Part shown: piece by piece, positions 17,106 through 47,674 of the stretch | How the letters are laid out: each line of letters opens with the position of its first letter | Numbering within the stretch: position 1 is the stretch's first letter | Source: Actinomycetes bacterium | GTDB taxonomy: Bacteria > Actinomycetota > Acidimicrobiia > Acidimicrobiales > JABEUL01 | Length of the DNA stretch: 48,441 nucleotides | Reading direction: 5' to 3' | Assembly: GCA_021777355.1 (NCBI GenBank) | Contig: JAJYDO010000011.1 | Location: 1 to 48,441, forward strand | Notes under the pieces: model-generated | What the model saw: only the letters and a program-made list of their open reading frames with translations | Database searches by the model: none | What the model was told of the DNA's origin: nothing | Program-made: the position numbers and the translations under genes

Positions 17106-20100
17106 CTAACCCAATGAGCCTATTAATGATCGAACCTCTTGAACTTTGGCTTTGAGATCGCGGCTTTTCCGCTCAATTGCACCAGATTCCTGCAAAAACA
17201 AAAATGTAACATCCACCACAGGCTCTCCAAGAACCTTCTCAACGGCTAATGCGTACGCAGCGCCTTGGTACTCGTAAGCTTCCATTGCCCTGTCTATGTC
17301 GCTCTCAGACTCACTTCGGTCACACTTGAAGTCAACAATTCGAAAACCTTCAGAGGTTTTAATCAATAAGTCAATATATCCTTCTAAATTCCTGTTTCCA
17401 ATTGAAGTTCCAATATAAACTTCTCGCCAGTATTGGTTGGACTCAACTGCACTTAAAACAATTGGTGAAGAAAGTGCATGACTTGCCAGCTTGGCAATCT
17501 CAGAAGAATATTGCGGAACTAATTCCGAGTTCGCGAAATAAGCGGCAAGATCCTGAAGGTTTTTACCGGTACTTAAATCTATAGTCTGTAAAGTAGAATG
17601 AACAGCCCTGCCAACACTAGTCCCAGCCCTCCCGCGTGATTTCAAACTAATTGGAACTAGTCCAACCCAATCTTCACTATTTGTAGTTTCACCAGAGAAC
17701 TCATAACTATCTTGTTCGTAAAACTTTCTAGCGGCTGAGTCGATGTCTTTTGGATCTATGTCATTCTTTGCCAATCGGGCAATTCCGGTTGGGCTCAGAT
17801 TGTATTGGGAGTATCGTGAAACTATCTCGGCATCATATTTGGCTGCGAATATCTCACGTTCGTCCAAGTATTCCTGAACCTTTTCGGCCGGCGATTTTGA
17901 AGAGTCTTCACTTTGGCCATTTGGCATAGAAAATATATTGTCATCTGATCGCCCAAATAACTCGCTTCCAAGGCTGTACTTTATTTCACCATTGCATGCA
18001 TCACAAGCTTCCAAGATTTTTTTTGGATATCCTTTCTTTTCTTTTCCATGGAGAGCAACGATTAGCATGTCTTTGGCACGCGTGAAGGCGACATAGAGGA
18101 GTCTTTCATGTTCGGCAGCGATCTTATCTTTTTCAACTTCTGACAGGACTGCGGAACCTGACGTTCTTAGGCTATTATTAAAATGAAATTCAGGGCAGTT
18201 ACTTTCGGAATCAAAGAGCATCTTAACTTCGGGTTTCGGGCGCATCTCCAAACCACAGACAACTACTATAGGATATTCCAATCCTTTTGCGGAGTGAATG
18301 GTCATGATATCTACAGCATCTCCGTATAGTTCAGGAAGGACCGCTTCGGGAACTCGTGATCCATTGTCTCGCATCTGATCTACCCACAAAATAAAGTCAT
18401 TTAACGACCTAGATCCGTTTTCACATATCTCCCTAGCCTTAGCTGTGATATAGCGAATTCGTCTTATGCCATCTTTTGATCTCTCATTGCCAAGCTCTTT
18501 CAAGAGCAATTCACTTTGATGCTCCACATGTCCGATAAAGAGGCCCGGTTCCATTGAATGTTTTAATTCATAAAGTCCATTAATGAAGGTAAGTGCACTA
18601 ACAACTGGAGACTTCGTTAGTGTGTCGTTATCTAGGCTCTTAACAACTCTAAAGTCCCATAAGCTATCTTTTTGGCCTTTGGAAGTTTTCAAATTATCCA
18701 CGGAACTTTGTCGGATCAACTCGACATATTGAAGCAAATCTTCGTCGTTGACACCGAATATTGGACTCCTCATAACTCCTAGCAGTGCAATTTGATCACT
18801 GGGATCATTTAACACTTTAAGTAAATTTATGTAATCCACTACTTCGTTGTGTCCAAAAATGAATGATTGGCTCGCCAGTCGAAAAGGAATTGAATGTGCA
18901 TTCAGTGCAGCCTCAATTCCAGAAGATCCCGTTCTTGTTCGGGATATGATTGCAATGTCTGAATATTTGGCTGCCCTCCACCTTCCATCTTCTCCACGCA
19001 CTTGGCGCTTTGTCTCAATTAGTTTCTTAATTGTGAATGCAATCTCGGCTCCAGCCTTTTCTCTTGCCTCACCAACATTTTCGGCGAGGCAATCTGTACC
19101 CAGAAGAATTACTTGCTGGTCTTCAGGAATCTCTATTTCACCTTCTGGCACAACTGGGACAATGGGGTCATAGTTTAGGCCCACCTTCGAGTTATTCCCC
19201 GTTGAAAAAATAGTCGAGCAAACATGATTGATCCAGTTAATTATCCCAGGAAGCGAACGAAAATTATTATCAAGCGAAATCACGCTGCCTGGATCAAACT
19301 TCTCTTTAACACTATTGAAAGCTTCAACGTCCGCGCGTCGAAATCTATAGATTGATTGCTTTGCGTCACCTACAAAACAAAAAATGCTGCTTTCCTCATT
19401 GATATTTGCATCGAGAGCACCTAAGTATGAAGCAATTTCGACCTGCAAGGGATCGGTGTCTTGAAATTCATCGATCATTATTCTTGGATATAGCCTCGAT
19501 ACTCTCTTCACTACATCTGGATTGTCACGCAGGAGGTTTCGTGCGATTACAAGTTGATCCTGCGACTCCAAAATTCCATTTTCCTGTCGCTCATGAGCCT
19601 TTTCTAAAACGCACCTGGAGAGGAATGAAATAACTTTATATATTTTGGCGTCAAGTATTGATTTATAGAACAACTCCAGACTATCAGCCAGCTCATTCCA
19701 TACTTCTTGCATTCTGGCAATATCCTGCCATTTTTTTTTGTCTCCGCCGTCTCGAGCAAGGCAGGTCCAATTAGGAATAGACCCGCTTAGTTTTCCAATG
19801 ATTACGTCCAATGGATCTCCTGGCTGGAGCAAACTTGTTAGCTTTGTGAGCACCGGAAATGCCTTGACGTATAACGTGTCCTCTGTTTTCTTGCATTCCC
19901 TGCTGACAAGAAGACCGTTCTCTGCCAGCTGATTCAATTTTACAATGAACTTATCAATCTTTGATACCGTGATATTTACGCTTTTGAATTGTTCAATTGC
20001 AATATCGATCTCTTCACATTTTTCCCAATTATCATCAAGAAGCTTAGTAGCTGATTTCAAGTGCTTTTCTGTTAAACCAAGTTTGTGAAGTATAAAAATA

Positions 20101-20609
20101 TCTTCTTGCAAACTAACCTCTTCGAACAGCATCCCCAAGATACTTTGTACCCGCTCATCTTTTTCTAAATTACCTTCCTCTGGCGAAAGGGTCTCAAAAA
20201 CTAAGGGGAGACCGGCTTCAATCGGGAATTGCCTAAGAATTCTCCTGGCAAAACCATGCAAAGTTGAAATAGGCGCGAAATCCAACTCACTAAGCGCCTC
20301 CTCAACCCTTAGAAGCTCTGCATTTTCCTCGTCGTTTTGGTGAAATTGGCTTAGTGAATAAAAAAGGGTCTCCAATCCTTCGCCAACTCTTTCTCGTAGA
20401 TCACTAGCCGAATTTTCAGTAAAGGTAATAGCTGCAATTTCAGTTATTTTCGCAGTTCCTGAAACTACTAATTCAACAATCCTGTTCACTAGAGCTGTTG
20501 TTTTTCCCGTTCCGGCCCCTGCCGTGATAAATAGCGGAGTTGAAGTATCAACTTTTATTCGATTCCTGACATCTTGGTCGCTTAAGAGTCTTTTAGCCTC
20601 ATTACTCAT
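17106..20609 (-). CDS. addA: AddA/RecB-like UvrD-family helicase with C-terminal nuclease
   Basis: Motor subunit of a double-strand-break end-processing enzyme. Helicase motifs in order are AGAGTGKT (motif I, about residues 30-37), ITFTENSASDLRERV (Ia), MIDEFQDTD (II), VGDAKQSIYRFR (III), LDNNFRS (IV), TIHSAKGLEYP (V) and LLYVAFTRAKD (VI). The last 150 residues carry a PD-(D/E)XK nuclease, GYIDLLIK...RIVDFKCDR, followed by YEYQGAAYALAV. The length (1167) fits AddA. It begins five bases after the AddB-like stop codon, and its ribosome-binding site (GGGGAGG) lies inside the end of that gene, so the two are translated together. Confidence 0.9.
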   Translation of the reverse strand: MSNEAKRLLSDQDVRNRIKVDTSTPLFITAGAGTGKTTALVNRIVELVVSGTAKITEIAAITFTENSASDLRERVGEGLETLFYSLSQFHQNDEENAELLRVEEALSELDFAPISTLHGFARRILRQFPIEAGLPLVFETLSPEEGNLEKDERVQSILGMLFEEVSLQEDIFILHKLGLTEKHLKSATKLLDDNWEKCEEIDIAIEQFKSVNITVSKIDKFIVKLNQLAENGLLVSRECKKTEDTLYVKAFPVLTKLTSLLQPGDPLDVIIGKLSGSIPNWTCLARDGGDKKKWQDIARMQEVWNELADSLELFYKSILDAKIYKVISFLSRCVLEKAHERQENGILESQDQLVIARNLLRDNPDVVKRVSRLYPRIMIDEFQDTDPLQVEIASYLGALDANINEESSIFCFVGDAKQSIYRFRRADVEAFNSVKEKFDPGSVISLDNNFRSLPGIINWINHVCSTIFSTGNNSKVGLNYDPIVPVVPEGEIEIPEDQQVILLGTDCLAENVGEAREKAGAEIAFTIKKLIETKRQVRGEDGRWRAAKYSDIAIISRTRTGSSGIEAALNAHSIPFRLASQSFIFGHNEVVDYINLLKVLNDPSDQIALLGVMRSPIFGVNDEDLLQYVELIRQSSVDNLKTSKGQKDSLWDFRVVKSLDNDTLTKSPVVSALTFINGLYELKHSMEPGLFIGHVEHQSELLLKELGNERSKDGIRRIRYITAKAREICENGSRSLNDFILWVDQMRDNGSRVPEAVLPELYGDAVDIMTIHSAKGLEYPIVVVCGLEMRPKPEVKMLFDSESNCPEFHFNNSLRTSGSAVLSEVEKDKIAAEHERLLYVAFTRAKDMLIVALHGKEKKGYPKKILEACDACNGEIKYSLGSELFGRSDDNIFSMPNGQSEDSSKSPAEKVQEYLDEREIFAAKYDAEIVSRYSQYNLSPTGIARLAKNDIDPKDIDSAARKFYEQDSYEFSGETTNSEDWVGLVPISLKSRGRAGTSVGRAVHSTLQTIDLSTGKNLQDLAAYFANSELVPQYSSEIAKLASHALSSPIVLSAVESNQYWREVYIGTSIGNRNLEGYIDLLIKTSEGFRIVDFKCDRSESESDIDRAMEAYEYQGAAYALAVEKVLGEPVVDVTFLFLQESGAIERKSRDLKAKVQEVRSLIGSLG

Positions 20610-20613
20610 ATTG

Positions 20614-23600
20614 TTAAACCTCCCCTTGTATCAATGAACTGAGTTTTACGAGTGACTCATGATCTTTAATTCTTAGCCATTCAAAATCTTTATCAGTTGG
20701 ACAAACAGTGCTAAAGTCGCAATATTCACAGGGGCTCTTACTGTCATTGTTAAAACTTGAATTGCTTGGAGTGGCAGGGAATATTCCATTGACAATGAAG
20801 AATACTAAATTAGCTAAAAATGCTTCTAAATATTCCTTCATCTCGGCATTAGCGCTAAAGGGCTTGGCCTTTTCTTCTTCTATCGGCAATGAATCTTCTT
20901 CAAGATACCAATAGTACGCAGAGACTTCAGGAACTCCGGTGCTTTCAACATAAGACTGCGCGTACATGGGGAGCTGCAAATACCTGCCGCCAAGAGAATA
21001 TTTCTCTACCGGATTTGAAGTCTCACTGTCCTTTCCGTCTTTGAGCTTGGGGGCACTAGGCAGAGTGCCGCTTTTGTAGTCAAATACACGAATATGGCCG
21101 GCGTTACTAATATCAGTTCTGTCAACTTTCCCATTGACTTCAACCTCTGCGACTTCCAATGTGTCACTTGTGCCCCCGGCTACTCTTACCTTCATGTTGA
21201 TTTGTTCCTCCGTCGCGCGAGGCCTGTAAATTTCACCTTCACCTCTCTTTCTTTGCTCTAAGTCGACCTTCACAAATCGTTTAAGCATCAAAATCAGATC
21301 ATCTAAAAGCCAGGCCTTCGGCGCAAAGTACCCAGTATTTCCAAAGAACTGATTGACCTTAGTCTCTATAAGTGAAATAATGTACTCTTCCCTGTCTTCA
21401 ATGCTCCACTGGTCTAAGCCGGCGAATTCAGGGTAATTCTTAATTTCATGGTCAATGTAGTCCTTCAATATTTCGTGGATTAGGTTTCCCTTTTTACTTC
21501 CACTTATTCCTTCTTCAACTTTGTCCTTTTTCGATATGGAAAGCACATGACGGAAAAAATACTGCCTGGGGCATTTGGAAAATTTTTCAAGCGAAGTCGC
21601 AGAAACAGAGGAGGCAAGGAGAAATTCGCTAGGGTTGACTTTTCCCTTGAACTGGTCAAACTTTAAATTCGCGCGTCCAGAAATATATTCAAGTGATTTC
21701 GAAAGTCTTGGATTAGTTGATTTTGTGAATTTTGCAAGCTCGCCAAGTTCCAAGTTGTTTTTCAATTCTCCTATCGTCGACATGTCAAAATCTCTGAGAT
21801 TTGCCGGGGGAAGCTTAGATCGAATCGAAGACGCGAATGATGGAATTCGGTAGAACTTATCGAATTCCAAGTCTTTTAATTCACTTGCAAACAGCCTTTC
21901 TTTTGACGCCGCTTGTTTTAAGAGATCCAAAAACCATGGAGATGGCCTTAGCTCTCTCCCCTGTAGCTGATCCCCTCTAGCAGTGCTGAGAGTGCAGTTC
22001 TTTGAGCTTGCCAAAAGTCCGTGAAAAATAAAAAGTTCAGTTTCGTTTTCTCGCCTTCTACTTAGAAAATCAAATCCCATTTCCTCTTTAACCGAGTCAG
22101 GCATAATCGGGTCTTCGTTGATCGATTGAGGGAGCTGGCCCTCGACAAGTCCTACAACAAAAAGCTGTTCAAAATTCATGCCGTAGGCTTGTCTCAGCTT
22201 CCCTAAATAAACGCCCTCTCCGAATCTTGCAGTTGTTGCCGCATTATTTCTCAATATAAGAGTTATCTCTTGAACAATCCTCTTAAGTAAAGCATTTGGG
22301 CTTTCATTTTCTCTTGCAGCTCTTTTATGTGAACTTAGTTTTGCAGCTTTGTCTAATTGATCTAATAAAGAGAGCTCGCTTATAATGTCACGGAAGGCCT
22401 GTCTGTCAATAGGGCTCCAATCGTCTAGATTATCTGGCTCGCCAAGCCATTTTTTGGCAAAATTAATCAACCTGTCGCCAAAATCCGCCCACGTTTTAAT
22501 CGGCTTCGAGCCAAGTAGCTCGATGTCTTTCATCAGGTCAAGAAGCACTTGATAATTCTTGGATTTATTTGGTGCATCGGGAGTTTTTTCAATAGAAAAC
22601 TCTAGGTATTTAATCCAGGTAGATAGGCTTTCCTGGCGACCTATTGACTCAATGCATTCGACCATCTCCACTTCGTCCACTTGTTCTCTCAAACCAGTAT
22701 CTAAAGCAATTTGGAGCGGAACCGACCTGACCAAGCCCGTCAGGTCGATATACGATGTTCCGTCAGCCAGAGTTAAGGCCAGGATTTTCATAATAAATTT
22801 TCCTGCGATTGTGTCGTTTAGCTTCAAATAGCTTTGGCCATAAAATGGAATTTGTGAATTGTAAAAGTATTCGCCAAACAGTCTTAAGTAACTGTTGTTA
22901 GGGACTATTATCCCAATATCACTCGGCCGGCTTGATTTAGCCAGGGCCTCTGTAATTAATCGGGTTATGTAGTGGGCTTCAGTATCGGCATTAGGCGCAC
23001 TTAAGAATTGCTTAATTTCCGGCTTTGCTTCACTGGCCACGAAAGAATTAGTATCATCGAAAAATTGCCTGACAATTGTGCTGCATATATTATCTGCCAT
23101 TTTATTTCCAGTGAAACCAAGTATTACGGTTGTATTTAGGTGTTTTAGAAGAAACCTTGCAATGGTGTTGTCAAGAGTTGAAAGTACCTGAGGCAAATAA
23201 ATTATGATATGGCCCAGCTGAGATTGTAACTGTGGATTGGTAGACAGCCTATCTGCGGCAACGGCCGCGGTTTCGATGGGCATTTCGTAAGTGTTTGCAA
23301 GAAGTGCTTGAATGATATTTCTTATCCTTATTAATTCTTTTATCTTTTCCCTCGACTTCGCTGAGAGCTTTTCTAAATCTGAATCGTTAAGTCTAAGCAG
23401 TTGGGCTACTGCCCGCGATATAACTTCAAGGGATAAATCGTGCCATAGAGCAGATGCGTACTTGGAGTCCTCTTGAATTTGTTCTCTTACTAAGTGTCGA
23501 ACCAATGTTTGGCTCAAATTCTGCTTTTTCTCAAGTGATGAATTCGTAACGTTTAGTTCTTTGACCAACTGATCTACTGTGGTGAATTTGATATTGGCAA

Positions 23601-23790
23601 TTCCAGCTCCGTGTGCAGACAGATCCCTCCTTAGTGAAATTGAAGCATGTGACGAAGACGTGATCACCGTAACGGGTGTCATAGGATTTGAACTTCGAAT
23701 CTGAGTTATCACATAACCAATTGCTTCAATTGCCTCGCTGCCAAACTTAGCTGTGACTAATTGAGGAACCCTATTTTCAGTTTCTGCCAT
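20614..23790 (-). CDS. addB: AddB/RecC-like subunit with Fe-S PD-(D/E)XK nuclease
   Basis: Partner of the AddA-like helicase. The C-terminal third holds a RecB-family nuclease: LEKFSKCPRQYFFRHVL, GNLIHEILKDY, GKVDRTDISN...VFDYKSG, LQLPMYAQSYV. Cysteines in FSKCPRQY and in CEYCDFSTVC make the four-cysteine Fe-S staple known from AddB. The N-terminal two thirds look like an inactivated helicase fold. I see no Walker A (the corresponding place reads VITSSSHASI), so it probably does not hydrolyse ATP. 1058 residues is within the AddB range. It is first in the two-gene operon and has CGGAGA before its ATG. Confidence 0.85.
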   Translation of the reverse strand: MAETENRVPQLVTAKFGSEAIEAIGYVITQIRSSNPMTPVTVITSSSHASISLRRDLSAHGAGIANIKFTTVDQLVKELNVTNSSLEKKQNLSQTLVRHLVREQIQEDSKYASALWHDLSLEVISRAVAQLLRLNDSDLEKLSAKSREKIKELIRIRNIIQALLANTYEMPIETAAVAADRLSTNPQLQSQLGHIIIYLPQVLSTLDNTIARFLLKHLNTTVILGFTGNKMADNICSTIVRQFFDDTNSFVASEAKPEIKQFLSAPNADTEAHYITRLITEALAKSSRPSDIGIIVPNNSYLRLFGEYFYNSQIPFYGQSYLKLNDTIAGKFIMKILALTLADGTSYIDLTGLVRSVPLQIALDTGLREQVDEVEMVECIESIGRQESLSTWIKYLEFSIEKTPDAPNKSKNYQVLLDLMKDIELLGSKPIKTWADFGDRLINFAKKWLGEPDNLDDWSPIDRQAFRDIISELSLLDQLDKAAKLSSHKRAARENESPNALLKRIVQEITLILRNNAATTARFGEGVYLGKLRQAYGMNFEQLFVVGLVEGQLPQSINEDPIMPDSVKEEMGFDFLSRRRENETELFIFHGLLASSKNCTLSTARGDQLQGRELRPSPWFLDLLKQAASKERLFASELKDLEFDKFYRIPSFASSIRSKLPPANLRDFDMSTIGELKNNLELGELAKFTKSTNPRLSKSLEYISGRANLKFDQFKGKVNPSEFLLASSVSATSLEKFSKCPRQYFFRHVLSISKKDKVEEGISGSKKGNLIHEILKDYIDHEIKNYPEFAGLDQWSIEDREEYIISLIETKVNQFFGNTGYFAPKAWLLDDLILMLKRFVKVDLEQRKRGEGEIYRPRATEEQINMKVRVAGGTSDTLEVAEVEVNGKVDRTDISNAGHIRVFDYKSGTLPSAPKLKDGKDSETSNPVEKYSLGGRYLQLPMYAQSYVESTGVPEVSAYYWYLEEDSLPIEEEKAKPFSANAEMKEYLEAFLANLVFFIVNGIFPATPSNSSFNNDSKSPCEYCDFSTVCPTDKDFEWLRIKDHESLVKLSSLIQGEV

Positions 23791-41534: not shown

Positions 41535-41589
41535 AACAAATGGGCAGAACTTTCCAGTGCTTATTTGTCAAGCTAAGAGGAAACATTTG

Positions 41590-42309
41590 GTGAGTCGAAT
41601 GGTTAAGCGTATATCAGCACTTGTGTCTACTGCGTGTTTGTTGACATCTCTTCTTTGGGCAGCAAGCGTAGTTGAGCGGCCCAGCACTGCCGGAGCACTT
41701 TCGCCGGGGTGGACTGTGGAAGGTCAAACAAACCTCAACCCAAATGCTTTTAATTCGGTCTCCTGTCCAAGCACTCGGGTGTGTTATGCCGTAGAAGCAT
41801 CCAATAATTCCAGTGAAATCCTAAAAACACAGAACTTAGGAGCTTCTTGGACATCAAGTTCCATTCCCTTTCAACCTCATATTGGAGGCGCGCAGATATC
41901 CTGCGTATCTGTTACGGAGTGTTATGCAGTTTTTTATCGCCTTTCAGACCCGGAATTTGGCATAAGCGGAATTACTTCTTTCTTTGCAACAACTGACTCC
42001 GGGAACACTTGGACGGAAGAATCTTCACCGGGACCAAATTTCTGGCAACTTTCTTGCACCGGCCCGGGAGTCTGTATGGCGGCAACTTCTGTTTCAATGT
42101 CAACATCCTCTTTGGGATTGACTGAAACCACCGATGGCGGGATTGATTGGACTCAGTCGAATCTTTCCATAGCCAGTTACAGCGACAATTTCACCGCATT
42201 TTCATGTTCCAGTTCAACTCAGTGCATCTTTTTATCTGCGGCCCCTATTACCTGTCATACTCAAATGGAAGTTGGAGCGCTTCACTTGCCACTGGGAATG
42301 CTTTTTTAG
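41590..42309 (+). CDS. Secreted Asp-box propeller protein, N-terminal part (frameshifted)
   Basis: N-terminal piece of a large secreted protein whose frame breaks near 42229-42245. A signal peptide (MVKRISALVSTACLLTSLLWAAS) precedes repeating units, each made of SC-x(4-6)-C followed by an Asp-box such as TTDSGNTW or TTDGGIDW. Four Cys-pair units begin here. After QCIFLSA the frame gives unrelated sequence and ends, while the -1 frame continues the pattern. I place the start at GTG 41590, nine bases after AAGAGG. TTG 41587 is possible. The Asp-box repeats are known from sialidases and other beta-propellers, but no catalytic residues are recognised. Confidence 0.75.
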   Translation: MSRMVKRISALVSTACLLTSLLWAASVVERPSTAGALSPGWTVEGQTNLNPNAFNSVSCPSTRVCYAVEASNNSSEILKTQNLGASWTSSSIPFQPHIGGAQISCVSVTECYAVFYRLSDPEFGISGITSFFATTDSGNTWTEESSPGPNFWQLSCTGPGVCMAATSVSMSTSSLGLTETTDGGIDWTQSNLSIASYSDNFTAFSCSSSTQCIFLSAAPITCHTQMEVGALHLPLGMLF

Positions 42310-45300
42310 AAAATGGTAGTTGCGCTGTTGGAACAAACTACTGCGTTGGATTCGGAACAAATTCCTCCAATGTTCCTGGCCTGTTTGCATCAACTGACGG
42401 AGGAAACAGTTGGGTTGATCAGCCAGCAACTAATGGGTATTTATTTTTTCAAATAAGTTGTTATTCTGCAATTTCGTGCTTTGCAATTGATTGCGATGGA
42501 GGCTCTATAAGAGTCGCTCAAACGTCGGATGGTGTGACCTGGACAGTGACAGATGTGCTGCCAATATCAAGGATAACCCTTGATTCATTATCTTGCTACT
42601 CAACTTCATGTATGTTGGTCGGTGCAAATAATGCTTCAGAGCCTATTGCAATTGTGTCCAGTAATGACGGAAGCACGTGGACCAGCATTGGAGTTTCAAC
42701 TTCAAACACAGTTTCGACTTTAAGCTCAGAAAGTTGTGCATCCACATTGTGTGTGGCTGCCGGAGGAAATAGTTTAGAAGTATCTAAAGACAGTGGGAGT
42801 TCTTGGAGTTTGGCTTCGCTTTCTTCAAATCTAAGTAGTGCGCAGTTCAATTCGGTATCTTGTCCGAGTGTACTTACTTGCTATATTGCTGGGTCACTGT
42901 CAGGATTGCCTCTTGTAATTTCAAGCTTTGACGGTGGTAATTCTTGGACATCACAAATCTTGTCTATTCCAATATCAGGAATTTCTTCTAGCTCACTAGT
43001 TTCAATTAGCTGCCCTGAATCTTCAAGTTGCATGGTAATAGGTAATTTTACCGGCTCTTCAATGAATGGAAGTGTTGTATTCTCAACTACTAATTCTGGA
43101 GTTAATTGGAATTACAGTTCATCATTTGAAGCTAATGGTATAACTTCGGTCAATTCAGTATCGTGTCCGGCAACCGGAGTTTGCTGGGTTACTAGGGGAT
43201 CGATAAATGCTTTCGAAACCAAAGATAACGGGGCGACTTGGACTTCTGTTTTTATAACAATCGGCATTAACAATAGCGCAACGGTGACAGACGGAGTCTG
43301 CCCGACTGTTACCAAATGTTATTTTTTCGATACTACCAATTTTGAAGTAATAACTTGGAATAATGGTTCGGAATCAGTACACTTCATTCCGATGTCTGCC
43401 TCCACTTCGCCGGCAATGTCTGTCACAATGTCCTGTCCGTCGAGTACTTCTTGCTTTATTGCCTTTAACTCATCAATTTTTATTTCTCCACCAACTTCGG
43501 AGATTCTAAGCACGACAGATGGGGGCAATAGTTTCCAAGTGGGATTAGGACCTGGCCAAATTAACGGAATACCCTTTGGGCAAATCACTTCAATTTCATG
43601 CGTCACTAATACGCAGTGTCAAGTTATCGGAGAAAGCTATGAGCAGGTATTTCTCGGGTTAAATGTGACAAATCCGAGTGCTCCAACTTCAGTAGTTGCC
43701 ACATCGCAAGTCCAAGGCGCCCAAATTTCATGGACCGCCCCTATCACAGATGGAGGAATGGGGATCTCGTCATATATTGTGACAGGCACAAATCTGACGA
43801 CGGGAACAATAATTGGATCCGTTCAGGCAAGTGGCTCACCGCCGGTTACCGCTGCGTCCTTTTCAGGGCTAGTGCCCGGTGATTTATACTCATTTTCCGT
43901 TGTGGCTAAGAACTCGTATTTCTCAAGTCCACCTTCACAAGCTTCCGCGCCTGTGCTAATACCTCCCGCTATCACTAGCATTTCTCCAAGTTTTGGTCCA
44001 GCTTCCGGAGGAACTGCAGTAACTATTACCGGAATTGGTTTGTCAGGTGTCACTGGTGTTGTATTCGGAGGCGGTGGTTATGGGGGGAATGCCACTTCAT
44101 TTACGATAATCAACAGCACTACAATTTCTGCGGTTTCACCGCCTTTTATAAGCGGCTTTGTAGGTCTCGAGTTAATCAATGCAGGAGGCTACTCTCAAAA
44201 TGTTGCGGCCGGTCAATTTCAATATTATTCCCCGAACCAACCCGTAGTATCTGGCGTGTCTCCAAATATTTCACCACTGTCTGGTGGCAGGCAGGTAAAT
44301 ATTTATGGGATAAATTTTGCTGGGGCAACTCAAGTAAATATCGGGACTACTGCGGTTTCAAATTTTACTATTGCTTCAAATAATGAGATCACATTCGTTA
44401 CCCCTCCTGTTCTTTCTGCCCGAGTGACCGACGTTTCAGTCACAACTCCGTATGGAAGCTCATCTAGCTGGAATCCAGACCACTTGATATTTCAAGATGG
44501 TGGAATATATACTCCGGTCAATTTGACAAGAATCGTCGACACAAGAATAGGAGCTTCAGATCCAAGCACCTATGCCGGTGAGACACTTGGGCTTTCAGGT
44601 AATTCAGAAACTTTAAGTGTCCCTGTTGTTGGTGCTGGCAGTGACCAGGTTCCAATCGGAGCAACTGCAGTGGTATTAAATATAACTGCGCTTAGTCCGA
44701 CAAGTTCCGGGTATTTGACGGTTTATCCTGGAGGCGATCCTATTCCTGGGACGTCAACTCTTAATTTTACTTCGGGCGAGTATGCAGTAGCCAACATGGT
44801 AGAAATCGGATTAGGTTCCGGTGGATCAATTGACATTACAAACTTCAAGGGTGCTGTTGATGTTTTGGTAGACGTCGAAGGATACTTCTCGGTTCCCAAT
44901 TCTGCAAACTCTCCTGGATTATATAATTCGCTCGACCCAATCAGAATCGCCGATACAAGGATGGGAGCTACCGATCCCCCTACCTACGCTGGGCAAACAC
45001 TGACTGGAGGTGGAACCGATGTTTTCCAAGTTGACGGGATGGGATCTAGCGTAAATGGGCTTCCTCAAAATAATGTTTCAGCAGTAGTTGTCAATTTGAC
45101 TGTCACAAATGTGACCTCTGATGGCTTCGCAACCATTTATCCAGACGGCACCTCAAAGCCGAATGGATCAACACTAAATATGATTCCTGGGAATGTGGTA
45201 ACAAATCGCTCCATTGTTCCTGTTGGATCAGATGGAAAGATTGATGTTTTCTGCAATGTCGGATGCGACTTAATCGTGGATATCTCTGGTTGGTTCACTG

Positions 45301-45740
45301 GAGACCTGCCGGGAGGCTCAGGTGATCTTTTTGTTCCAACCACTCCAACACGGGAGGCTGATAGTCGTCCGAATTCTGGACTATGGGATGCTGGTACCTT
45401 ATTTGGATTCTATGGCGGTTCCCAAGGCGGGCTTTCATACCCAATTAATCTTGAGATTTTGATAAGAGATCCTTCGTTGCCATCCAATACAGATGCTGTA
45501 GTGCTAAATGTTACTGTAACTGACGTCTGGGGGCCTGGTTATCTAACCTTGTGGCCTTATGATTACCCAGTTCCACAAACATCGGATATGAACTGGAGCT
45601 CTGGGCAAACAGTGGCAAATCTTGTTATTGCAAAATTAGGTTCCTACTATGGTTTTGGAGTTCCCGATGTATCGATGGCAGCCAACATGGAGGCTATGAC
45701 AGTAGTGGATGTTACGGGATACTACCTGCCGGTATTGTAA
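42147..45740 (+). CDS. Secreted Asp-box propeller / FN3 / TIG / repeat protein, main part (frameshifted)
   Basis: Continuation of the preceding frame, real from about CGPYYLSYSNG (residue 31 of this ORF). Ten more Cys-pair/Asp-box units run to about residue 505 (examples STDGGNSW, SNDGSTW, SFDGGNSW, TKDNGATW). They are followed by a fibronectin type III domain (about 508-600), two TIG/IPT domains (ITSISPSFGPASGGT at 606 and VSGVSPNISPLSGGR at 697) and three repeats of an actinobacterial surface module (IVDTRIG...VVLNITA...YLTVYPGG...VDVEGYF at about 785, 921 and 1056). It is probably an extracellular adhesion or matrix protein. The last repeat ends the protein, with no membrane anchor. Confidence 0.8.
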   Translation: MDSVESFHSQLQRQFHRIFMFQFNSVHLFICGPYYLSYSNGSWSASLATGNAFLENGSCAVGTNYCVGFGTNSSNVPGLFASTDGGNSWVDQPATNGYLFFQISCYSAISCFAIDCDGGSIRVAQTSDGVTWTVTDVLPISRITLDSLSCYSTSCMLVGANNASEPIAIVSSNDGSTWTSIGVSTSNTVSTLSSESCASTLCVAAGGNSLEVSKDSGSSWSLASLSSNLSSAQFNSVSCPSVLTCYIAGSLSGLPLVISSFDGGNSWTSQILSIPISGISSSSLVSISCPESSSCMVIGNFTGSSMNGSVVFSTTNSGVNWNYSSSFEANGITSVNSVSCPATGVCWVTRGSINAFETKDNGATWTSVFITIGINNSATVTDGVCPTVTKCYFFDTTNFEVITWNNGSESVHFIPMSASTSPAMSVTMSCPSSTSCFIAFNSSIFISPPTSEILSTTDGGNSFQVGLGPGQINGIPFGQITSISCVTNTQCQVIGESYEQVFLGLNVTNPSAPTSVVATSQVQGAQISWTAPITDGGMGISSYIVTGTNLTTGTIIGSVQASGSPPVTAASFSGLVPGDLYSFSVVAKNSYFSSPPSQASAPVLIPPAITSISPSFGPASGGTAVTITGIGLSGVTGVVFGGGGYGGNATSFTIINSTTISAVSPPFISGFVGLELINAGGYSQNVAAGQFQYYSPNQPVVSGVSPNISPLSGGRQVNIYGINFAGATQVNIGTTAVSNFTIASNNEITFVTPPVLSARVTDVSVTTPYGSSSSWNPDHLIFQDGGIYTPVNLTRIVDTRIGASDPSTYAGETLGLSGNSETLSVPVVGAGSDQVPIGATAVVLNITALSPTSSGYLTVYPGGDPIPGTSTLNFTSGEYAVANMVEIGLGSGGSIDITNFKGAVDVLVDVEGYFSVPNSANSPGLYNSLDPIRIADTRMGATDPPTYAGQTLTGGGTDVFQVDGMGSSVNGLPQNNVSAVVVNLTVTNVTSDGFATIYPDGTSKPNGSTLNMIPGNVVTNRSIVPVGSDGKIDVFCNVGCDLIVDISGWFTGDLPGGSGDLFVPTTPTREADSRPNSGLWDAGTLFGFYGGSQGGLSYPINLEILIRDPSLPSNTDAVVLNVTVTDVWGPGYLTLWPYDYPVPQTSDMNWSSGQTVANLVIAKLGSYYGFGVPDVSMAANMEAMTVVDVTGYYLPVL

Positions 45741-46029
45741 AGACATAAATTTAGTTGCTCAAACTTAAATTTACAATTCTGATATTTCCCAAGCTTCGAA
45801 AATAACGGCCCTTCATTTCTTCAGCCTAATTTAACCTCTAATTGCTTATTTGATTCTGGCTGGTTGAGGTAATAACATTACAGCTGGGAAAAGCGTTAAC
45901 GTGGATGCCCTGGCGAATCATAGTGTGATTTGCGAAACTCTCCTACCTAAACTGTGCGCCATATTCGATTAGTTCCTTTTAGTCCAGATGCATTGTGTTG
46001 TTAGGCGACTCTCTAAATGATTACAACAA

Positions 46030-46236
46030 GTGTGGTTTAGGCCATTGATGGTGAGGATGCAAGGATATTCGGTACCTGTTGGATGTGAATTGGCCGCCTA
46101 TAACGCGAAAGAGCAACCATCACTGGAGACTAATGGCGATTTGGTTATCAGTTATAACGTTATAGGTTGCCCATGGGCACCAAATGGGAATAACTATCGA
46201 CCAAGATTCCTGATTTTATCTAGCAGTTCGGCGTAA
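46030..46236 (+). pseudogene. C-terminal remnant of a DUF4185-like secreted protein
   Basis: The 68-codon ORF reads AAYNAKEQPSLETNGDLVISYNV...NNYRPRFLIL. This resembles, from memory, the final strand set of DUF4185-like glycosidase-fold proteins (AYNA..HPEL...LLVSYNV...YRPRF). Nothing upstream in the 45741-46029 space extends it, and its GTG start has no ribosome-binding site, so it is most likely a leftover of a deleted gene. Two perfect 12-bp palindromes (46153-46164 and 46168-46179) fall inside it. The rest of this 515-base gap shows no gene. Confidence 0.5.
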
Positions 46237-46243
46237 AAAGGAA

Positions 46244-46249
46244 TAAAAT
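46244..46249 (+). promoter_or_regulatory. -10 element of a probable leaderless transcript
   Basis: TAAAAT is six bases before the ATG at 46256, the same layout as at 4297. AAAAGGAA also lies upstream, about 14 bases from the ATG, so ordinary initiation is not excluded. Confidence 0.35.
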
Positions 46250-46255
46250 TAATCT

Positions 46256-47674
46256 ATGAGATCCTTTCTTTTAAAGAAACTCAGCTGGGCAACTAAGTCC
46301 AAGAGGATGCTTTTCATAACTTCGGTGGGAGTAATTGTAAGCATTGTAGTAATAGTTACAATCACTTCAATCATTTCAAGTCCCACGCAAAAAGATGCCA
46401 GGTCAATAACTTCAACCAGCAGTAATCAATCTGCTTCGTCAACGTCTACTTCCTTAGGGACTACTGATTCAAGCACTACTACTTCAACGAATACAACAAC
46501 ATCAACCTCTAACGGATCAACAACAACGATTCAATCAACTTCTACGACTACAGAACCCCCGCTACCGAGTTGGCATAACGTCGTGCCTTCTACTGGTGTG
46601 AGTATGTTTTCAAATTTGGCGATTACTGGTCTCTCGTGCCCCACTCTGACATTTTGTGTTGCTACGGCCAAACCAGGAGCTCCGACTGTAGGTAATTCAG
46701 TGGTTTATGTGAGCAACAATTTCGGAGAGTCTTGGAGCACAAAACAATTTAGCAACCAAGAGCTGTCGTCACTTACTTGTTTATCGTCGACGACATGTCT
46801 CGTTGTTGGTGAGGCTTACTTGAATTCCAAGCAATCTGATGTAGAGTATCGGACAACTGATAGCGGGCAAAATTGGCAGTCAATCGCACTTTCATCGTCG
46901 TTTTTTGACGCCTCAATTATCTACTGTGAATATGGAACTCAAGTTTGCTTGCTGTTCGGTGGAAATTCTTCTTCAAATTATTCGAATAGCTACTTAGCTA
47001 AATCTACTGATGGCGGGTTAACCTGGATGTCGGATATTGCAACTGGGACTATGCTCGCTGGCATTGACGTAACTGGCATATCCTGTCTCGATCAAAGTAG
47101 GTGCGTTATAGCTGGATACAGTGATATATACTCGCAACCAGGACCTTCACCAGACTGGCAACCAGGGAGTGATTATAGCTACGAAGCTTTTACGATCGAT
47201 GGCGGACAAACTTGGACTAACAACACAAATATGGGTAATTATGGCACAGTATACGCCGTACGGTGCCCGACAAGTGGAAGCACATGTTGGATGATAGTCG
47301 CGTACCCATCAGATGGGAGTGCTTCAGGAACAAGTTCGTGGGCGCCAGTGAGCCCAGTAGTGGAACAGATACAGTTTTCAGCTACAGGCGTTACAGTCAA
47401 TGATACGCCGGAAGTTCCTTCAGCAGTATCTGGTGAGGGTGGCGTTCTAGGCACCTTCCTTGCTTGCAACGCTAGCGCCTGTCTATTCCCTACCGAATCT
47501 GAAATTGATTCGGTTACGATGACCGGACAACCGAGTTTTAGTTCTGTATCGGCTAACAGCTTGACAAATGACAATACCGTCGTAGGTGCTTGTGTTGAAG
47601 ACGGACCTCAATGCCTAATCTTAGGGACCATCAGAAATGGAACCCCACAGAATGTCGAAGTAGCCTTTAGTTGA
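46256..47674 (+). CDS. Membrane-anchored Asp-box propeller protein, seven Cys-pair units
   Basis: 472 residues. A basic start and one hydrophobic segment (MLFITSVGVIVSIVVIVTITSII, about residues 18-40) act as signal anchor. A Ser/Thr-only stalk of about 65 residues follows. The rest has seven Cys-pairs (SCPTLTFC, TCLSSTTC, YCEYGTQVC, SCLDQSRC, RCPTSGSTC, ACNASAC, ACVEDGPQC), several followed by Asp-boxes (STDGGLTW, TIDGGQTW, TTDSGQNW). This fits a single seven-bladed propeller displayed on the outside. It is related to the large protein 500 bases upstream. The function is unknown, and binding of a polysaccharide or another surface component is only an inference. Confidence 0.85.
   Translation: MRSFLLKKLSWATKSKRMLFITSVGVIVSIVVIVTITSIISSPTQKDARSITSTSSNQSASSTSTSLGTTDSSTTTSTNTTTSTSNGSTTTIQSTSTTTEPPLPSWHNVVPSTGVSMFSNLAITGLSCPTLTFCVATAKPGAPTVGNSVVYVSNNFGESWSTKQFSNQELSSLTCLSSTTCLVVGEAYLNSKQSDVEYRTTDSGQNWQSIALSSSFFDASIIYCEYGTQVCLLFGGNSSSNYSNSYLAKSTDGGLTWMSDIATGTMLAGIDVTGISCLDQSRCVIAGYSDIYSQPGPSPDWQPGSDYSYEAFTIDGGQTWTNNTNMGNYGTVYAVRCPTSGSTCWMIVAYPSDGSASGTSSWAPVSPVVEQIQFSATGVTVNDTPEVPSAVSGEGGVLGTFLACNASACLFPTESEIDSVTMTGQPSFSSVSANSLTNDNTVVGACVEDGPQCLILGTIRNGTPQNVEVAFS

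Follow-up and report, generated by a model that had tools for sequence, protein, structure and literature searches.

The window analysed here is a 48,441-nucleotide stretch (contig JAJYDO010000011.1 of assembly GCA_021777355.1, from an actinobacterium of the order Acidimicrobiales, JABEUL01) that encodes two proteins built from repeated units, each carrying a pair of cysteines and, in most cases, an Asp-box hairpin. Judged from its sequence, the unit is a Cys-paired variant of the known Asp-box/YCF48 kind of β-propeller, and its copy number peaks at multiples of seven, both in the window and in the homologues. What is new here is the presence of 25 other array genes in the same genome, the link of membrane-anchored seven-unit paralogues to extracytoplasmic function (ECF) sigma factors and an apparent exchange of propeller cassettes. 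The best explanation as a whole, which we hold to be reasonably probable, is a disulfide-reinforced binding scaffold of low charge that has been greatly expanded in the Acidimicrobiales, an order that has received little study, and in their relatives, with the sigma-coupled forms serving as sensors. The units are located in the window as follows.

41557–42309, + strand: ORF1 (250 residues), with a signal-peptide-like N-terminus, Cys-pair units 1–3 and the first half of unit 4.
42205–42309, + strand: frame break in unit 4, where ORF1 and ORF2 overlap in different frames.
42147–45740, + strand: ORF2 (1197 residues), with the remainder of unit 4, units 5–14, a fibronectin type III (fn3) domain, two IPT/TIG domains and three C-terminal modules of about 135 residues.
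42321–43619, + strand: Cys pairs of units 5–14, ten of the SC-x(4-6)-C type, with Asp-boxes after units 5, 7–11 and 13.
46256–47674, + strand: ORF3 (472 residues), predicted to consist of a short cytoplasmic stub, one transmembrane helix, a Ser/Thr-rich linker and a seven-unit Cys-pair propeller.
46307–46378, + strand: single transmembrane helix of ORF3, residues about 18–41, read from the sequence (MLFITSVGVIVSIVVIVTITSII).
46637–47614, + strand: the seven Cys pairs of ORF3, starting at 46637, 46778, 46925, 47084, 47264, 47465 and 47591, with Asp-boxes in units 1–4.

A direct count gives four Cys pairs in ORF1 (C70/76, C116/122, C167/173 and C217/223; the GTG start of this frame is a mechanical call, and a downstream GTG or ATG at about 41590–41599 is also possible), ten in ORF2, all within residues 1–491, and exactly seven in ORF3, which has no unpaired cysteine in the whole protein. 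Joined over both frames (41557–45740), the large protein has 4 + 10 = 14 pairs. These are the numbers given in a preliminary description of this DNA, which had also placed the break inside unit 4; it does lie there, between the Cys pair of unit 4 (42205–42225) and the ORF1 stop (42309). The true unit count of the large protein is 14 independently of this break, because an intact orthologue from the same genus (L072:357–4547, on G001:C287), 77% identical to ORF2, has 14 units in a single frame of 1397 residues. In GC content, these genes do not differ from the window as a whole.

The preference for seven extends to the homologues. Units were counted by the Cys-pair pattern; one lost pair was added wherever the spacing came to about two units, and pairs less than 24–30 residues apart were taken as one. 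Two sets were used, one made of the genome of the window and its relatives and the other of contigs found by another query, with genomes partly common to both. Complete single arrays fall on multiples of seven in 46 of 65 cases in the first set and in 39 of 58 in the second. The 123 complete arrays form 87 clusters at 50% identity and, with gaps filled, 59 of these have 7 (21 clusters), 14 (34), 21 (three) or 28 (one) units, compared with 12.4 expected if the counts were indifferent to seven; no excess was seen at moduli 5, 6, 8, 9 or 10 in these 87 clusters. Single-linkage clustering at 35% leaves 12 of 15 clusters at multiples of seven. Since related sequences are not independent, binomial p-values for such counts are only a guide. 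Arrays without Asp-boxes, taken by themselves, peak at the same numbers (eight with 7 units, 11 with 14, one with 21 and one with 28). The expectation that homologues would have 7, 14 or 21 units is therefore strongly borne out, although about one third of the arrays lie off the multiples of seven and speak against strict universality (16 units in L011, 13 in L012, 12 in L050, 15 in L068, 10 in L063 and L094, and others). In highly repetitive WD40 propellers, too, blade numbers peak at 7 and 14, with a continuous range of values in between (PMC9218822). The counts reported here extend the sevenfold pattern to the Asp-box branch, reaching 21 and 28.

The repeat is about 40–55 residues long, with a family blade of about 46 residues, and S/T-x-D-x-G-x-x-W/F hairpins recur at blade spacing (mostly 40–55 residues), as is expected of an Asp-box propeller (Quistgaard & Thirup, 2009). 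Each unit had been described beforehand as SC-x(4-6)-C followed about 30 residues later by an Asp-box. The Cys pair is indeed present in all units of the two proteins, but the strict Asp-box pattern is found in only 10 of the 14 units of the large protein and four of the seven of ORF3, and it starts 16–29 residues past the first cysteine (36 in unit 4 of ORF3), mostly 20–27. The Cys-pair pattern is not due to chance, because a Cys-blind profile search of the family recovered the pair in 1,396 of 1,438 distinct units and 95% of all cysteines within the arrays belong to C-x(4-7)-C pairs. Many of the single-Cys cases in the Cys-blind search are alignments starting past the first cysteine; with an ordinary profile, 2,037 units have both cysteines and only two have a single one. 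Within a blade, the two cysteines are retained or lost together. Among same-genus orthologues the cysteines are conserved at 100% (124/124), compared with 86% for the Asp-box, 69% for loop 4-1 and 63% for the top loop 2-3. Many relatives have an NGxxW hairpin in place of the Asp-box, with the Cys pair and the sevenfold counts retained, so that it is the Cys pair, and not the Asp-box, that defines the branch. One such subtype has units of almost exactly 40 residues with the same Cys pair and the NGxxW hairpin, in arrays of 12–14 units (L012:4133–7366, L045, L050, L051 and L078:8099–11389).

In the Asp-box blade as described previously (PMC2716378), the bottom face with the Asp-box is structural and the top face functional, loop 2-3 being functional in known members. 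Set against this blade, the Cys pair brackets the turn between strands 1 and 2 and the Asp-box forms the turn between strands 3 and 4, which places both on the bottom face; the loop conservation, lowest in the top loops, agrees with the rule of a structural bottom and a functional top face. The arrays are also very low in charge, with Asp, Glu, Lys and Arg making up 7% of residues on average compared with 20–27% in neighbouring housekeeping proteins, a composition that would suit an acidic milieu.

An AlphaFold2 (AF2) model of ORF3, with 15 homologues in the alignment, is all-β (predicted local distance difference test, pLDDT, 72.5; predicted template-modelling score, pTM, 0.77). When the model is compared with the PDB by Foldseek, matches 1–3 and 5 are YCF48, with the whole target covered and TMt values of 0.64–0.71, followed by GH74, CylK and sialidases. 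The model thus supports ORF3 as one seven-bladed propeller, with the ring closed in the predicted structure. The earlier suggestion that multiples of seven fit seven-bladed propellers, for which structure prediction had been named as a check, is strengthened by this model and by the counts, but does not cover the arrays of 10, 12, 13, 15 and 16 units. YCF48/HCF136 (PSII_BNR, PF14870), itself seven-bladed, is also the best sequence-profile match in the PDB (E 3e-6) and has the same order of strand 1, turn, GxAVG-like strand 2 and TDGGxTW hairpin. Relative to the PF14870 cut-off of 27 bits, the window proteins remain at or below 21.5 bits, and the paralogues L010 and L011 exceed it with 38.9 and 51.0 bits. 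YCF48 serves in the assembly of photosystem II and is not known to have a Cys pair in each blade, whereas the present proteins carry such a pair at the turn between strands 1 and 2 in almost all blades, are very low in charge, form arrays of up to 14–28 units and occur mostly in actinobacteria. A role in photosystem II assembly is implausible for the window proteins, because photosynthesis is not known in the host group.

Other known systems share single traits with these proteins. GH74 xyloglucanases have an uninterrupted 14-blade stretch with Asp-boxes missing in some blades (PMC2716378); the present proteins differ by their Cys pairs, by other C-terminal domains and by having no family match, neither Pfam nor NCBIfam giving a GH74 match and the PDB profile match being weak (E 0.11). 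Sortilin/Vps10 also carries Asp-box blades in a membrane-anchored extracytoplasmic receptor and gives weak PF15902 matches, below the cut-off, but it has ten blades in one ring followed by 10CC domains, whereas the window proteins have 7 or 14 units and the family counts cluster at seven. The repetitive WD40 propellers are similar in their blade amplification and in counts that peak at 7 and 14, other numbers being in the minority (Pereira & Lupas, 2022; PMC9218822); here, in contrast, the lineage is that of the Asp-box, the blades are mostly diverged with a Cys pair in each, and 21 and 28 units also occur. A Legionella longbeachae plasmid (L210, NZ_CP020895.2:32942–35038) encodes seven near-identical 56-residue units of SC-x4-C plus Asp-box (WP_125466284.1, 'sialidase family protein'), but this protein is gammaproteobacterial, recently amplified and different in its N-terminal part. 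The Cys-pair unit corresponds to no entry in Pfam, NCBIfam or the PDB, which agrees with the initial impression of an undescribed family. In the open-access literature (subscription papers being outside the search) we found no description of an Asp-box family with a disulfide per blade or of propeller ectodomains in partners of ECF sigma factors, and the words disulfide and cysteine are absent from two surveys of Asp-box and repetitive propellers.

The protein closest to ORF3 in its own genome is encoded on contig C93 (L009), where the propeller gene starts before the preceding ECF sigma gene has ended (sigma 182–739, propeller 729–2207); the product of the sigma gene scores above the cut-off for PF04542 and PF08281. 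The same overlap occurs at three loci of a sister genome, L268:7033–9040, L269:785–2783 and L273:2–1655, the last being cut by the contig end. The coupled paralogues have a short cytoplasmic N-terminus, 37 residues long in L009, one transmembrane helix and an extracytoplasmic domain, the layout of the anti-sigma-like membrane partners of ECF sigma factors, from which they differ in that the ectodomain is a Cys-paired propeller and that no Pfam anti-sigma domain was detected. In the orthologous pair L009/L268, identity is 83% for the sigma factor, 68% for the N-terminus and transmembrane helix, 70% for the linker and 32% for the propeller, with an abrupt change after DPNPTW, and the L009 propeller is closer to its counterpart in the paralogue L269 (42% identity), where the sigma factor is only 47% identical. 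These identities are most simply explained by the replacement of a whole propeller cassette next to an anchor that was retained, which is a lead and not a rule, since the case consists of two genomes and one pair. More tentatively, and as an idea that we would not yet call likely, the Cys-stapled propellers might be interchangeable ligand-binding cassettes mounted on a conserved transmembrane, anti-sigma-like anchor with its ECF sigma factor and drawn from a recombining, genome-wide reservoir of paralogues, among them the 25 array genes outside the window. If this is true, a cell could re-aim a signalling circuit by swapping the propeller, leaving the sigma factor unchanged.

ORF3 itself departs from this coupled type. 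The window contains no sigma gene, and the N-terminus of ORF3 is about 20 residues shorter than that of the sigma-coupled form, both of which count against the explanation proposed here. So does the finding that dN/dS is 0.1–0.3 everywhere, with no sign that the top loops are under positive selection. Because a similar short N-terminal form exists in genome G002 (L288, seven units), the orphan membrane-anchored proteins seem to be a second type besides the sigma-coupled one, with ORF3 as an orphan relative.

Taking these results together, we propose that each unit is one blade of an Asp-box/YCF48-type propeller in which a disulfide would staple the strand 1-2 turn and, also on the bottom face, the Asp-box hairpin would hold the turn between strands 3 and 4, leaving the top-face loops 2-3 and 4-1 free to vary and to bind putative ligands. 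Both proteins are exported. The large form, with its IPT/TIG domains and its three C-terminal modules, would be a binding protein associated with the surface or the wall, and the seven-unit form would be a membrane-anchored ectodomain. As its close paralogues are translationally coupled partners of ECF sigma factors, the seven-unit form is, or once was, most likely a sensor through which binding outside would be signalled to the sigma factor inside (the genes overlap; the signalling is the conjectural step), and propeller cassettes were apparently exchanged behind the conserved anchor. One Cys pair per blade, placed at the turn between strands 1 and 2, would provide a simple sequence code for a large unnamed branch of bacterial β-propellers. 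Because blades can be counted from the sequence, the family lends itself to the study of why seven blades are preferred and of how arrays lengthen one complete ring at a time. The forms coupled to ECF sigma factors suggest a sensor design whose ectodomain can be swapped.

The 14 units of the large protein would most likely form two seven-bladed propellers in tandem, as in GH74, where such tandem rings arise from one continuous Asp-box stretch (PMC2716378). Alternatively, arrays of 14 could close into other rings (for example 8 + 6) or one large ring, the multiples of seven reflecting common ancestry only. Several observations lean this way and weigh against two rings of seven: lag-7 self-similarity, a sign of whole-propeller duplication, is not significant in the 14-unit arrays (331/2000 permutations); a conspicuous linker at the border of units 7 and 8 was sought in these arrays and not found; the Asp-box is retained in unit 7; just one Velcro end is visible; arrays of 10, 12, 13, 15 and 16 units exist; and a WD40 array of 15 was predicted as 7 + 8 (PMC9218822). 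An AF2 model of the full-length 14-unit homologue L124 (1165 residues, six sequences) is uninterpretable for the array (pLDDT 51.7, pTM 0.43) and does not help the tandem arrangement; this model was discarded, and its Foldseek matches (TM about 0.1 for the top ones) were set aside. We nevertheless consider other rings unlikely, given that the peaks at 7, 14, 21 and 28 recur in two collections and in both hairpin subtypes, that unit 7 is the most divergent of units 1–13 (p = 0.013) and that GH74 offers a precedent. At the ends of the array, unit 14 has no Asp-box and usually no Trp, and a Trp-containing strand often precedes unit 1; this is as expected for a 1 + 3 Velcro closure in which an N-terminal strand completes the ring, with marginal complementarity between the N-terminal Trp strand and the Trp of the last unit (p = 0.036). 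Paired extracellular cysteines are usually found as disulfides, and we infer intra-blade disulfides here. The weak side of this assignment is the oxidation machinery: VKOR and Thioredoxin_4 oxidases were not found in the 94%-complete genome of the window (G000), despite many predicted exported disulfides, and the sole DSBA-family match looks cytosolic, without an obvious signal peptide; there are two CcdA/DsbD_TM matches. The failure to find an extracytoplasmic VKOR or Thioredoxin_4 oxidase, together with relatives from peat and probably mine-site metagenomes (judged from isolate names), would fit a role of the thiols in binding iron or some other metal, in an acidic habitat rich in iron. We find this very unlikely, as there are just two cysteines per blade and as a similar Cys pair in the C-terminal modules is present or absent as a whole, in the manner of structural disulfides.

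At the level of function, the serious competitor to a binding scaffold with sensor forms is an ordinary surface adhesin or S-layer-like repeat protein, in which the propellers would serve passively as structural spacers in biofilm and wall attachment, with neither specific ligands nor a part in signalling. The signal peptides, IPT/TIG, fn3 and triplicated C-terminal modules of the large forms, the very low charge and the many paralogues would all suit such spacers, and we give this explanation an appreciable chance, short of even; it leaves unexplained the translational coupling of several seven-unit anchored forms to ECF sigma genes, for which a spacer would have no use, and the fact that the top-face loops are the most variable. 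Far less probable are extracellular glycosidases of the GH33 (sialidase) or GH74 (xyloglucanase) type, in line with the name 'sialidase family protein' that such proteins receive from annotation pipelines. GH74 and sialidases do figure among the Foldseek and profile matches and one homologue is annotated as a sialidase family protein, but the Pfam and NCBIfam glycosidase models score far below their cut-offs and charged residues are sparse; glycosidase activity is unlikely, because the [FY]RIP sialidase motif with its catalytic arginine occurs in none of the 176 array proteins. Finally, the frame break, which may be either a real mutation or an assembly error, raises the question of whether the large gene of the window is a pseudogene without function in this copy or a victim of faulty sequencing or assembly. 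The gene is divided over two frames and disrupted propeller genes are already known (PMC9218822), but it remains open for 1197 codons, is 77–81% identical to the intact orthologue and is accompanied by 25 further array genes elsewhere in the genome, so that we regard this possibility as rather unlikely.

The family is abundant in the genome of the window (2.78 Mb), where the 25 array genes outside the window occupy 76 kb, or 2.7% of the assembly, some of them being cut by contig ends. Match counts are similarly high across this genome's family. In a survey of 247 genomes across the phylum, 45 gave strong matches to the seven-unit profile. Named relatives include metagenome-assembled genomes of Acidimicrobiales and Acidimicrobiaceae, Conexibacter, Terrabacter, Pedococcus and Solirubrobacterales, with further matches in records named Chloroflexi and Dormibacterota; only three relatives were found in plasmid records and none in phage records. 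At L010:3504–9166, two tandem array genes share near-identical stretches of units (SLSEISCATSSFCVAVGNSNTNG) and the contig ends within the repeat; such stretches may be a site of gene conversion and a source of assembly breaks. In L171 and L198, a seven-unit propeller occurs in fusion with a domain resembling SGNH/DUF459 hydrolases, which may hint at a setting that involves enzymes or carbohydrates.

Downstream of its 14 units, the large protein continues with the following domains.

43677–43946, + strand: fn3 domain (Pfam PF00041, E 7.8e-9).
43965–44225, + strand: first IPT/TIG domain (Pfam PF01833, whole-protein E 9.4e-16 over two stretches).
About 44253–44501, + strand: second IPT/TIG domain, its position read from the sequence.
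44502–44906, 44916–45314 and 45324–45737, + strand: three C-terminal xDTR-type modules.

The xDTR modules of about 135 residues have no match in Pfam, NCBIfam or the PDB. They give 40 match segments in the genome of the window, with paralogues in L124, L125, L128 and L130. In many paralogues they carry a CDTR...QC Cys pair, which is either complete or wholly missing; both cysteines are absent from the modules of the window. Elsewhere in the window (17106–23790, − strand), two adjacent genes of about 1,060 and 1,170 residues encode UvrD-helicase and PDDEXK-nuclease proteins resembling AddAB/AdnAB.

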